Assembly: GCA_015062445.1 (NCBI GenBank) | Contig: SUUQ01000008.1 | Location: 1 to 52,772 of the forward strand | Reading direction: 5' to 3' | Length of the DNA stretch: 52,772 bases | From: Alphaproteobacteria bacterium | Lineage (GTDB): Bacteria > Pseudomonadota > Alphaproteobacteria > Rs-D84 | In this document: positions 4,736 through 33,341 of the stretch, piece after piece | Numbering within the stretch: position 1 is the first letter of the stretch | How the letters are laid out: every line of letters begins with the position of its first letter | The notes under the pieces: model-generated | What the model saw: only the letters and a program-made list of their open reading frames with translations | Told to the model about the DNA's origin: nothing | Databases searched by the model: none | Position numbers and translations under genes: made by a program

Positions 4736-6161
4736 TTTAGAATTCTTGCGCGCGTTGTTGCGGTCAGACTTTAAATCCTTTGCGATTAAGATGTTTAACG
4801 AGGTGTCCGCAGGCGCACAATATATGGATAATTGGCATATAGATGTTGTATGTAACGAAATCGAACAAATGATAAGTGGCGATAACAATCGCCTGATTGT
4901 GAATATACCGCCACGAAATATGAAATCTATTATCTGTTCGGTGGCATTGCCGGCATATTTACTGGGGTTGAATCCGCAAACACAAATTATATGTGTCAGC
5001 TATGCGGACGAACTGACCAAGAAGTTTGCCAACGACTGTCGCACTGTGATGGAAACCGCCTGGTATGCGGATCTGTTTCCATGCACTAAAATTGACCACA
5101 GGCGCAGCGCAACTATGGACTTTCAAACCACACGTGGTGGTGGACGATTTTCAACAACCATAAACGGGACTTTGACCGGACGTGGTGGCGACTGGATTAT
5201 CATTGACGATCCATTAAAGGCATCTGACGGTCTGTCAGATGTTTTACGAAACAAAGTGAACGATTGGTATGCGACGACACTCTATTCGCGTCTGAACAAC
5301 AAAAATACGGGCAATATACTGGTTATTATGCAACGTCTGCATCAAAGTGATTTGACAGGGTATTTACTGGAGAAACAATCTGGCTTTCGTTATATCACGA
5401 TACCAATGATTGCGGAGACAGATGAAGATTGGTCGTATACCGACAAGTTTGGATACAGACACGATATAGTACGACGCGTGGGCGAACTGTTGCATCCAGA
5501 ACGTGAAGACATGAACTCTGTCGCACATTTGCGTCAGACGCTGGGTGAATATGCATTTGCGGGACAATATCAACAACGCCCTGTTCCAAAAGATGGTGGA
5601 TTGGTTAAACGGTCTTGGTTGCACTTTTATAACGAATTGCCCCAACGTTTCAAACACATCTTTCTGTCATGGGATACAGCGTCTAAGACCGGTATTACAA
5701 ACGCATATTCGGCATGCGCAGTATTCGGGGTCGGAATTGATAATCGTGTGTACCTGCTGGCCGTGGAACGTGGACGGATGGAATACCCTGCCCTGTTAAA
5801 GCGTGTGGCGGAATTACACACCCAAACACAACAAGTGCATGGCAACTGCCCGACAACAACACTGATTGAAGACGCGTCATCTGGCACCGCATTGATACAA
5901 CAGTTACGTGCCCAACACAGAATGAGTGTTGAACCAATCAAACCAATATCAGACAAAGAATCCCGACTAAATGCAACCACGGCCTATATCCAAAACGGGA
6001 CGATTGTGTTTCCTAATACCGCCGGCGCATGGTGGCCAGATTTTCTGGACGAATTGCTGACATTCCCGGCATCTACATTCAAAGATCAATGCTATGCATT
6101 TTCCCAAGGCATCGGCCATATTGATGGCCTGTACCTCAGCGCCCGCCGTGGATATTTTTAG
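4716..6161 (+). CDS. terL: Phage terminase large subunit
   Basis: 481 residues, ordinary length for TerL. The ATPase half has a Walker A-like PPRNMKS at residues 65-71 and a Walker B, IIIDDP, at 161-166. The nuclease half begins with LSWDTASKTG (Asp320) and includes LIEDASSG further on, the acidic residues expected of the RNase H-like headful nuclease. It would drive DNA translocation into a prohead, yet no portal, capsid or tail gene follows: the next gene has its own promoter and is unrelated. The cassette is therefore a prophage remnant, or a conserved methylase-TerS-TerL unit kept for another reason. The frame is intact with no stops. Confidence 0.9.
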   Translation: MDERINNLEFLRALLRSDFKSFAIKMFNEVSAGAQYMDNWHIDVVCNEIEQMISGDNNRLIVNIPPRNMKSIICSVALPAYLLGLNPQTQIICVSYADELTKKFANDCRTVMETAWYADLFPCTKIDHRRSATMDFQTTRGGGRFSTTINGTLTGRGGDWIIIDDPLKASDGLSDVLRNKVNDWYATTLYSRLNNKNTGNILVIMQRLHQSDLTGYLLEKQSGFRYITIPMIAETDEDWSYTDKFGYRHDIVRRVGELLHPEREDMNSVAHLRQTLGEYAFAGQYQQRPVPKDGGLVKRSWLHFYNELPQRFKHIFLSWDTASKTGITNAYSACAVFGVGIDNRVYLLAVERGRMEYPALLKRVAELHTQTQQVHGNCPTTTLIEDASSGTALIQQLRAQHRMSVEPIKPISDKESRLNATTAYIQNGTIVFPNTAGAWWPDFLDELLTFPASTFKDQCYAFSQGIGHIDGLYLSARRGYF

Positions 6162-31604: not shown

Positions 31605-32429
31605 TTATTCCCACAGGGCAACCAAACGTAAGTTCCCAGGTACCGTCCATGTCCATGACGAACCCGGCGAAATAACAATACCCGTGTCATTACCCAATGC
31701 ATCCAACACGCGATACCCCGCAAATGTCGCACCATCCGCCGCGGTGCATACCGTGCTTCTGGGGGTGATACTGTTGCCAAAGGTGGTACTAACATAACGG
31801 TTGTTTGTTGCACCGTTATTACACAAATACGGTGCAACATATGTGTTTGCCGTCCATCGCGCAACCATCGTTTTATCGGTGGTATAATTGTATGAATAAT
31901 ATTGCCCCTTGGTTAATGACGTGGAATCTATCTTCCAGCCACTAAGGGAATAGCCCGGCTTACGGCATGTACCAACATCGTATGGTGGGGTATACATATC
32001 CCCCCACCCCATTTCACGGGATTCGGGCGGCGTGCCGGTCGCACCATCACCACATGAATATGACAGTGTGTATGTCGTGGGACACAGTTGCCCCGAATTT
32101 GGGTTTGCATGATATATTGCATCATTATAACTGACATTCAATGTGCCATCTGATTGGCCACTTATCAAATCCGCATAGCAAACTGTGTCGCCGTTTTTAA
32201 TGTGAATGGCTGGAAATGTTCCCTGGGTCGCAAACAGGTCAAATCTATATCCGTTGGATGTATGTAAACCGGTCATGCCACCGCCGCACAACTCAACGCA
32301 GTCCCCGTTGAAATTGCGAACCAAATTTACCGCCGGCCCCAAATATGCCGTGGTACCATCTGGACATACCGAATATGCCGACAACGGCATTAATACAGGT
32401 ATAACAATATAAACATTTCTGCAATTCAT
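31605..32429 (-). CDS. Secreted Cys-rich protein with Listeria/Bacteroides-type repeat
   Basis: 274 residues from ATG 32429. Signal-like N-terminus MNCRNVYIVIPVLMPLSAYS. A repeat-like region at about 130-215 (TYTLSYSCGDGATGTPP...GYSLSGWKI...TTDKTMVARWTANTY) matches the Y-x-Y-x-C-x-G...GY-x-x-x-GW...W pattern of InlB/Flg_new repeats. It ends GNLRLVALWE, again the LxALW close of such repeats. Probably a surface protein in the same family as the gene at 30728. It lies directly downstream of the candidate ncRNA terminator. Confidence 0.65.
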   Translation of the reverse strand: MNCRNVYIVIPVLMPLSAYSVCPDGTTAYLGPAVNLVRNFNGDCVELCGGGMTGLHTSNGYRFDLFATQGTFPAIHIKNGDTVCYADLISGQSDGTLNVSYNDAIYHANPNSGQLCPTTYTLSYSCGDGATGTPPESREMGWGDMYTPPYDVGTCRKPGYSLSGWKIDSTSLTKGQYYSYNYTTDKTMVARWTANTYVAPYLCNNGATNNRYVSTTFGNSITPRSTVCTAADGATFAGYRVLDALGNDTGIVISPGSSWTWTVPGNLRLVALWE

Positions 32430-32445
32430 CCCCACATCCCCAATC

Positions 32446-32671
32446 AAAAAACCGCCCATAAATAACGGCGGTCGGGGAGTTAGCAAATCATCATACCAGT
32501 GATTCCAATGGCCTTTCGGTGAAACCGTGTTTTATAACCAATGGCCCCCCGACATTTCGAATCGGGGGCATAACGGTGCGATGGCACCGAAACACCATAT
32601 TTTTTGACGATGCAATATCGCACCGGGTATAATGGGCTTGCTACAGCCCCGAACGCAGTCATTAACGTTCG
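32446..32671 (-). ncRNA. Candidate structured RNA of about 225 nt, unidentified
   Basis: Read on the minus strand: a consensus promoter (32678-32706), predicted start near 32671, and an intrinsic terminator (32451-32472 with a T-run to 32446). Internal pairing is dense: a closing stem TCGGGG/CCCCGA (32648-32653 with 32473-32478), GGTGCGAT/ATCGCACC enclosing a stem-loop, GCCCCCGA/TCGGGGGGC, and GGTTTCACC. No convincing ORF. Hallmarks of RNase P RNA, SRP RNA or a tmRNA T-arm were not found. It may be an unrecognised 6S-like or lineage-specific RNA, or a regulatory leader for the gene at 32429. Confidence 0.5.
32451..32472 (-). terminator. Terminator of the candidate ncRNA
   Basis: CCGCC with GGCGG plus a closing A-T pair; on the minus strand a run of six T follows. 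It lies 22 bases before the start codon at 32429. Confidence 0.7.
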
Positions 32672-32677
32672 TATACC

Positions 32678-32706
32678 ATTATATCGAATTTTGTGATTTT
32701 ATACAA
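32678..32706 (-). promoter_or_regulatory. Promoter of the candidate ncRNA
   Basis: On the minus strand: TTGTAT (32706-32701), exactly 17 bases, TATAAT (32683-32678). Confidence 0.6.
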
Positions 32707-32845: not shown

Positions 32846-32972
32846 ACCGGCCGCCGCCGGTATGACGGGGGTGTGTGGCCCGCGTGGGTATGGCAGGGGT
32901 GTGTGGATAAAAATTATGTTTTATAAAATGTCTTAAGTGTTTTGTCATTCCGTGACCAATCCACGGGATGAC
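32846..32972. repeat. Intergenic palindromic repeats (two families)
   Basis: 32846-32872 holds a GATACCGGCC/GCCGGTATGACG hairpin of the same family as 30174-30250. 32944-32972 is a palindrome GTCATTCCGTG...CACGGGATGAC. The stretch 32905-32950 is repeated with few changes at 33304-33350. No gene is visible in 32707-33374 apart from these repeats and the array at 32978. Confidence 0.75.
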
Positions 32973-32977
32973 ATGAG

Positions 32978-33243
32978 TTTTTTACATTTGTTATTTTCGT
33001 GTTTGGTGCTGAGGTAAGAAAAAGGCATACACCTGGGTCCCGTGGTCCAGCCACGGGATGACAATTTTTTTATGTTTGTTGTTTTTTTTGTTTGGTGTTG
33101 AGGTAAGAAAAAAAGGTATACACCTGGGTCCCGTGGGCAAGCCACGGGATGACAATTTTTTTATGTTTGTTGTTTTGGTGGTTGATGCTGAAGTAAGAAA
33201 AAGGTATACACCTGGGTCCCGTGGTCCAGCCACGGGATGACAT
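32978..33243. repeat. Tandem array of about three 90-bp repeats
   Basis: The palindromic core (ACCTGGGTCCCGTGG...CCACGGGATGACA) recurs at 33030-33063, 33120-33153 and 33210-33243, exactly 90 bases apart. The intervening arms (T-rich, then TGAGGTAAGAAAAA-GG) are also repeated. The core loop alternates between TCCAG and GCAAG. Because 90 is a multiple of three, long false ORFs appear on the minus strand. Confidence 0.88.
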
Positions 33244-33341
33244 GAGTGGGTGGGTGGCCCGCGTGGGTATGACGGTGGAGGTCTTGGTATGACGGGGGGT
33301 CTGGGGGAAAATTATGTTTTATAAAATGTGTTAAGTTTTTT

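Follow-up and report, generated by a model that had tools for sequence, protein, structure and literature searches.

Which kind of RNA is encoded on the minus strand between positions 32446 and 32706 of the 52,772-nucleotide stretch of DNA analyzed here (the window), and what is its relation to the gene that follows it? A preliminary description had proposed a promoter, about 225 bases of structured RNA and an intrinsic terminator, and had considered either a diverged 6S RNA or a lineage-specific RNA tied to the following secreted-protein gene.

Structure of the element

The minus strand carries, as had been claimed, the boxes TTGTAT and TATAAT separated by 17 nt (32706–32678), which are followed by a structured leader of 225 nt and an intrinsic terminator. 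The predicted folding energy of this RNA (−95.4 kcal/mol, z = −4.5) was not matched by any of 200 shuffled sequences, and its inner stems are backed by covariation in relatives, confirming the structured RNA of about 225 bases. The accompanying statement that the RNA contains no ORF was nearly correct, the exception being a mechanically called 60-aa ATG ORF inside the leader (32480–32662, minus strand). Scans of the region for single promoters and terminators gave chance-level results, i.e., one promoter-like sequence against 1.2 expected, located on the plus strand, and one terminator-like sequence against 0.7 expected, which is the terminator at 32469–32451. Both signals are nevertheless credible in this leader, because they are conserved across copies of the element: a TANNNT box ends 4–10 nt 5' of the first hairpin in 24 of 26 aligned copies (displaced windows: 7.0), and a terminator-like hairpin lies between the domain and the gene in 125 of 131 copies (shuffles: 4.0). 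The parts of the element are as follows.

32701–32706, minus strand: −35 box TTGTAT, read from the sequence
32678–32683, minus strand: −10 box TATAAT behind a 17-nt spacer; a TANNNT box is found here in 24 of 26 aligned copies
32651–32670, minus strand: 5' hairpin P1, beginning at about the predicted transcription start; covarying in the alignment of copies and analogous to the 5' hairpin of phage P1 c4-a1b1
32634–32649, minus strand: hairpin P2 (GGGCU-loop-AGCCC) with a1 in its loop; 96% of cells paired, two-sided changes in 3 of 5 pairs
32637–32643, minus strand: target segment a1 (UAGCAAG), complementary to a'; triplet covariation, 95.5% paired in alignment A6
32626–32632 (counted by hand), minus strand: target segment b1 (UUAUACC), complementary to b' over 7 pairs, one of them G-U; covariation
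32574–32625, minus strand: stem P3 (CGGUGC...GCACCG) with a variable interior; 99% paired, changes mostly one-sided
32546–32568, minus strand: hairpin P4 (CCCCCGA...UCGGGGG); 98.9% paired, no two-sided changes
32470–32553, minus strand: three-way junction resembling C4 and sRNA-Xcc1 (closing stem P5, P6 and P8); model R1, and RF02221 match at 32463–32553
within 32470–32553, minus strand: internal loop of P6, UAUAAAACA/GAAAG; model R1 and alignment
32491–32497, minus strand: b' in the loop of P8, antisense to b1; covariation
32481–32487, minus strand: a' in the strand joining P8 to P5, antisense to a1; covariation
32446–32471, minus strand: intrinsic terminator; terminator scan and conservation in copies
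31605–32429, minus strand: downstream gene, encoding a 274-aa protein with a signal-peptide-like start; its ATG lies 40 nt past the C4-like domain

Upstream of the leader, at 32900–33300, a run of near-identical repeats was recognized by eye, with units containing GTCATCCCGTGG...CCACGGGACCCAGGTGTATACC.

At gathering thresholds, Rfam returned nothing in the whole window besides a tRNA (tRNA-Ser), so that identity with 6S, RNase P, SRP or tmRNA was ruled out, the last three in agreement with the preliminary description. In the relatives' loci, Rfam matches to plastid-ycf2 proved to be the opposite strand of tRNAs.

Copies across relatives and their position before genes

The set of relatives searched comprises 99 genomes, namely metagenome-assembled genomes of Alphaproteobacteria, mostly from animal guts. 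A DNA search with the RNA matched 43 of them, many with several copies each, at approximately 66–85% identity to the window copy, and many of these matches start at query position 138, equivalent to 32553, which is also the edge of the sRNA-Xcc1 match described below. A covariance model of the 3' domain built from 28 copies (R1) matched 65 of the 99 genomes at E <= 0.01, of which 51 are among the 59 of the genus, 11 among the 18 others of the order and three among the 22 others of the class; the RNA is hence, as had been suggested, mainly specific to one lineage. The window's genome holds 15 R1 copies, which rules out a single-copy gene, and one relative of about 1 Mb holds 49. A second model, R2, describes the full leader and lacks the a1:a' and b1:b' pairs discussed below; counting short partial matches, it found 19 in the window's genome and 54 and 51 in two relatives. 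All 100 loci supplied to R2 were matched, and 99 of 104 matches span nearly the whole model. The stems, whose conservation in relatives had been named as the check on the RNA, are kept there.

The counts that follow refer, unless indicated otherwise, to 131 copies, 116 from relatives and 15 from the window's own genome; related copies among them are not independent, and weak copies are under-represented since copies were picked by score. In 113 of the 131, an ORF of 60 aa or more that has a Shine-Dalgarno-like stretch begins 35–157 nt past the domain, and in 111 of these it does so within 75 nt. This constant distance, together with the TANNNT box and the terminator-like hairpin, identifies the element as a 5' leader with its own promoter and terminator. 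The proposed tie to the following secreted-protein gene is accordingly upheld as regards position, while actual control of that gene would follow from the mechanism considered below.

The proteins encoded downstream mostly lack a Pfam family (107 scanned), and many start, as judged by eye, with lipoprotein or signal peptides. Among the families found are glycosyltransferase family 2 (three proteins), EcoRI-type adenine methylase (two), outer-membrane barrel (two) and the YadA anchor (two), in addition to single occurrences of cytosine methylase, Stealth, PLD-like, sulfatase, autotransporter, superinfection-immunity-like and other domains. Since the EcoRI-type adenine methylases, at loci L055 and L167 (recognized by eye from their KNDEFYT/KDDEFYT start), carry the same leader, genes of restriction-modification type are to be counted among the leader-borne genes. 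In genome G014 (about 1 Mb, at least 49 copies, loci among L063–L172), many leaders precede paralogous proteins of a large surface-protein family, which share ASI(V/I)SRGFFDE or IASIPSSAFMREQ after the signal peptide.

The window gene itself has a paralog with its own leader (G000:C4). The two genes are 88% identical over 676 nt, whereas blastn detected no comparable similarity between their leaders over most of their length, which suggests that turnover is faster in the leaders, or at any rate in their codes, than in the genes that they precede.

Viral contigs were searched with patterns derived from the domain: the conserved 5' half gave no match and the 3' half gave one. A full leader copy precedes a secreted-protein gene on this contig called viral (IMGVR_UViG_3300029904_000303, locus L221, about 4880–5140), where neighboring ORFs resemble, by eye, a serine recombinase, an XRE regulator and possibly a reverse transcriptase.

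Pairing of a1 with a' and of b1 with b'

RNAalifold analysis of 26 full-length copies revealed two long-range helices with many compensatory changes, in which a1 pairs with a' and b1 with b'. The resulting pseudoknotted structure is 96.3% paired, compared to 86.8% in shuffled alignments, with a covariation of 0.379 versus 0.190 in shuffles and at most 0.082 when the helices are slid; two-sided changes occur in all seven b1:b' pairs and in four of the five a1:a' pairs. In the alignment of 104 matches fitted to R2, which holds no information on these pairs, the nine a/b pairs are 90.0% paired against 48.7% in shuffles, and their covariation amounts to 0.848, compared to 0.185 in shuffles and no more than 0.130 in slid versions. 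Each of the four Watson-Crick pairs is represented among them. Measures that count pairs and pair types were not separable from shuffles in this alignment (472 and 231 of 500), because nearly all types are already present at every pair. When 55 x 65 column pairs were scanned blindly, with more than 70% pairing and at least three Watson-Crick types demanded, a1:a' and b1:b' were the sole helices to pass, in addition to one stray pair.

Complementarity to the upstream segments is likewise evident at the level of individual copies, as the longest run averages 8.03 with a copy's own upstream sequence versus 5.81 in permutations, none of 2000 of which reached the own value (129 genus copies). Downstream of the domain, where a2 and b2 would be expected by comparison with C4, the longest run is 5.55 versus 5.33 in the same 129 copies, with 7 of 2000 permutations reaching the own value; a2/b2 sites are mostly absent in the genus copies, which display at most a slight excess.

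The pairing segments differ between copies. Parsing of both b' and b1 succeeded in 122 of the 131 copies, 102 of which reach a pairing score of 7 or more, and all 13 parsed b codes of the window's genome are different, as are 27 of 31 in G014. Within genomes (84 copies, 10 genomes), the fit of an RNA to its own a1/b1 exceeds that to the other copies by run length (8.02 versus 5.67), by the share of runs of at least 7 (88% versus 14%) and by duplex energy (−18.2 versus −12.5 kcal/mol). The codes are thus nearly private rather than exclusive, as 48 of 210 cross pairs in the window's genome also reach 7. A separation of addresses within genomes beyond drift was considered and set aside: cross-complementarity is slightly lower within than between genomes (5.678 versus 5.788), a difference for which no significance is claimed.

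Relation to C4 and sRNA-Xcc1

The order of these parts is that of the C4 immunity RNA. In the record of phage P1, the annotated order is promoter, a1, b1, C4, a2, b2 and icd, and the Rfam C4 alignment displays a 5' hairpin and, after it, a1 in a hairpin loop, while C4 itself consists of a closing stem and two hairpins. Placing a' and b' of P1 C4 from their annotated targets puts b' into the loop of the second hairpin and a' immediately behind it. The layout of the window RNA agrees with this: its closing stem encloses two hairpins, the last of which carries b' in its loop, the joining strand that follows holds a', and a1 followed by b1 lies upstream; promoter, 5' hairpin, a1, b1, junction, b', a' and gene therefore succeed one another in the same order and places as in P1/P7 C4 (RF01695, and c4-a1b1, RF03163). 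The models RF01695, c4-2 and c4-a1b1 gave no match in the window up to E = 10, nor at the C4-like domain in 20 relatives' loci, while P1 itself scores 68.8 bits in the C4 model search. Kinship with C4 proper consequently rests on architecture.

Differences are also apparent. Between b1 and C4, P1 carries an isrK-like stretch that closes with a terminator-like hairpin, whereas the terminator follows the domain in the genus copies; P1 C4 acts on a2/b2 before icd, for which the genus copies have no clear counterpart; and the genus copies, unlike P1/P7 C4, occur many times per genome on accessory genes. C4 arises by cleavage of a longer RNA, and specificity is determined by its loops (excerpt of PMC5320573). 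By description, the CI RNA of satellite phage P4 is similar, being an antisense RNA cut from a leader that pairs with an upstream segment, seqA, and causes transcription termination, although it also pairs with a downstream site, seqC (excerpt of PMC4825925). Group 1 C4-like sRNAs of Acinetobacter baumannii resemble the genus copies in being C4-type RNAs with variable a', many of which are present in one genome; they are thought to act on phage or bacterial RNAs, while the genus copies are gene leaders with matching a1/b1 and a terminator (excerpt of PMC5320573).

The Rfam search suggested in the preliminary description yielded no family at its cut-off for this RNA; its nearest kind was nevertheless indicated by sRNA-Xcc1 (RF02221), which at a lowered threshold matches 32553–32463 over the full length of its model (positions 1–87) with 25.2 bits (E = 0.032; cut-off 53 bits). 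The match thus covers all 87 nt of the model, three-way junction included, at a score below the curated cut-off. RF02221 also matches 6 of 20 relatives' loci over model positions 1–87, always at the 3' domain (best 42 bits, E = 5e-4), and 49 of the 99 relatives' genomes at E <= 1, two of them above cut-off (57.8 and 55.5 bits), compared to one weak match and none above cut-off in 14 control genomes. In a search of 398 genomes of the phylum, 58 had a match at E <= 0.001 and 39 had one above cut-off, versus none of the 14 controls. Judged from these model matches, the 3' domain (32470–32553) is a divergent relative of sRNA-Xcc1, sharing its three-way junction.

sRNA-Xcc1 is a northern-verified RNA of 88 nt (excerpt of PMC2996969) and is found upstream of symE in Xanthomonas integrons (excerpt of PMC12444791). 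Its classical copies are complementary to the sequence on both sides, with longest runs of 8.72 versus 6.01 upstream (29 loci) and 6.93 versus 5.21 downstream (30 loci), reached by 0 of 2000 permutations in either case, and 20 of 30 precede a Shine-Dalgarno ORF at 23–45 nt. Of 29 proteins encoded downstream, five carry Bro-N, three Phage_pRha, two SymE, one P22_AR_N and one KilA-N, and one copy above cut-off among the relatives (L031) precedes, by eye, a Rha-like gene. As the classical loci possess both target sites and often precede phage antirepressor genes or symE, RF02221 itself looks like a C4-type RNA. Classical and genus copies differ in that the former have a downstream a2/b2 over the ribosome-binding site, which the latter mostly lack; in the terminator-like hairpin, which is upstream in 20 and downstream in one of 30 classical loci, compared to 39 and 125 of 131 genus copies; and in the genes, which, where a family was found, encode Bro-N, Rha, KilA-N, P22_AR_N or SymE rather than surface proteins.

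In the literature on sRNA-Xcc1 and C4 antisense RNA, no statement was found that RF02221 is of C4 type, and one paper naming both lists them as separate annotations. Literature searches for sRNA-Xcc1 together with antirepressors returned nothing; those for C4 antisense RNA returned, judged by title among the papers listed, nothing on such gene leaders, and a broader search was likewise empty. At locus L183, a sub-threshold c4-2 RNA (34.8 bits, 2890–2958) lies 1.3 kb from a classical sRNA-Xcc1 copy. Five sRNA-Xcc1 copies about 381 bp apart are listed for Xylella fastidiosa Temecula1 at 1,313,466–1,315,082 (excerpt of PMC12189769), a spacing which looks like that of a tandem array of leader-plus-small-gene units.

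Competing folds and alternative explanations

The hairpin P4 and the closing stem P5 are mutually exclusive, and a single fold was ruled out, as the alignment is paired to about the same extent under two folds that exclude each other. For the same reason pair counts do not separate P4 from P5; P5 is preferred on account of the RF02221 match and one covarying pair, while the absence of two-sided changes lends P4 little support. For 85 of 89 copies, the closed fold (a1:a', b1:b') is predicted to be more stable than the C4-like one, and the a/b pairs are part of the minimum free energy structure in 87 of 89. The last bases of the three-way junction overlap the terminator, which was shorter in 86 of 89 copies when the whole closing stem was forced. 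This appeared at first to be a clean terminator switch, an idea weakened under a fairer constraint: with the inner closing stem alone forced, the terminator was shorter in 36 of 89 copies, equal in 51 and changed the other way in 2, and strict Watson-Crick overlap with the terminator extends through the last four bases in 6 of 131 copies and through two or more in 49. On this modelling, a switch at the terminator is possible.

Because self-pairing in cis is so much more stable than the C4-like fold, a1 and b1 may serve cis folding alone. The element would then be a cis-only attenuator or riboswitch, in which a1/b1 and a'/b' merely fold the leader. Antisense action in trans would be absent, and the choice between the closed fold and the three-way junction would fall to a ligand, a protein or the speed of transcription. 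A predicted minimum that holds the a/b pairs in 87 of 89 copies, the conserved internal loop UAUAMAACA/GAAAG, the invariable position directly upstream of a gene and the scarcity of a2/b2 would all suit such a device. We nonetheless regard it as rather unlikely, since the architecture is that of P1 c4, a known antisense RNA, since the downstream genes are diverse and follow no common pathway, which is unusual for a riboswitch, and since its kin sRNA-Xcc1 is northern-verified as an 88-nt RNA (excerpt of PMC2996969).

It is improbable that the copies are free-standing trans-acting sRNAs which end at the terminator and act on distant mRNAs, the gene behind them being incidental. The terminator-like hairpin of 125 of the 131 copies fits this explanation, as does sRNA-Xcc1, which Chen 2011 reportedly describes as trans-acting, but a gene starts at a nearly constant distance in 113 of the 131, and the leader that an RNA fits best is in most cases its own. 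Quite improbable, too, is a dispersed repeat that spreads with a gene or alone and keeps its structure for its own mobility only; up to 49 copies (R1) or 54 matches (R2) per genome and the copy on a contig called viral are set against codes that differ, an identity to the window copy of about 66–85%, and constant orientation and distance to genes. Finally, a diverged 6S or other housekeeping RNA, which promoter, size and terminator had brought to mind, can practically be dismissed, given that no such Rfam family matches up to E = 10 and that 15 dispersed copies (R1; 19 matches with R2) and their context contradict it. The preliminary interpretation as a whole is partly supported.

Proposed function

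The element is probably a C4-type antisense leader, i.e., an attenuator of the phage-immunity type placed over accessory genes, with a nearly private code for each. We infer transcription, processing and direction of control as follows. Most transcripts would end at the terminator, and the terminated leader would perhaps be cut at the start of the three-way junction, as RNase P cuts P1 C4, to release a small RNA. The a' and b' of this small RNA would pair with a1 and b1 of their own locus, either in cis or on newly made transcripts. This pairing would set the share of transcription that continues beyond the terminator into the gene. With P1 C4 and P4 CI RNA taken as models, self-limiting repression is the likeliest sign of control, and the outcome would be a private off-switch, derived from a phage-immunity module, for each of many surface and other accessory genes.

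More tentatively, and with rather less expectation that it is correct, a phage immunity RNA may have been turned into a genome-wide control, in which C4-type leaders with nearly private codes switch surface genes on or off locus by locus, in a self-sustaining manner and with the DNA unchanged. As the sole target is upstream and the terminator lies after the domain, a second RNA molecule on a1/b1 would free the three-way junction and could favor readthrough. If this were true, tens of accessory genes, mostly of the envelope, would be addressed in a gut alphaproteobacterium of about 1 Mb, the address consisting of a 3-nt a and a 6–8-nt b.

In phages, antisense immunity RNAs are known to occur as single switches; in this lineage the same design is found before tens of host accessory genes, with leader addresses that change together with their targets. 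Such leaders would offer natural sets of nearly orthogonal RNA regulators. For sRNA-Xcc1, which has been discussed as virulence-linked in Xanthomonas and Xylella, the comparison suggests a C4-type RNA of phage antirepressor and symE leaders, on which reading its targets should be sought next door first. For this uncultured gut lineage, the leaders may constitute a route by which its surface is varied.
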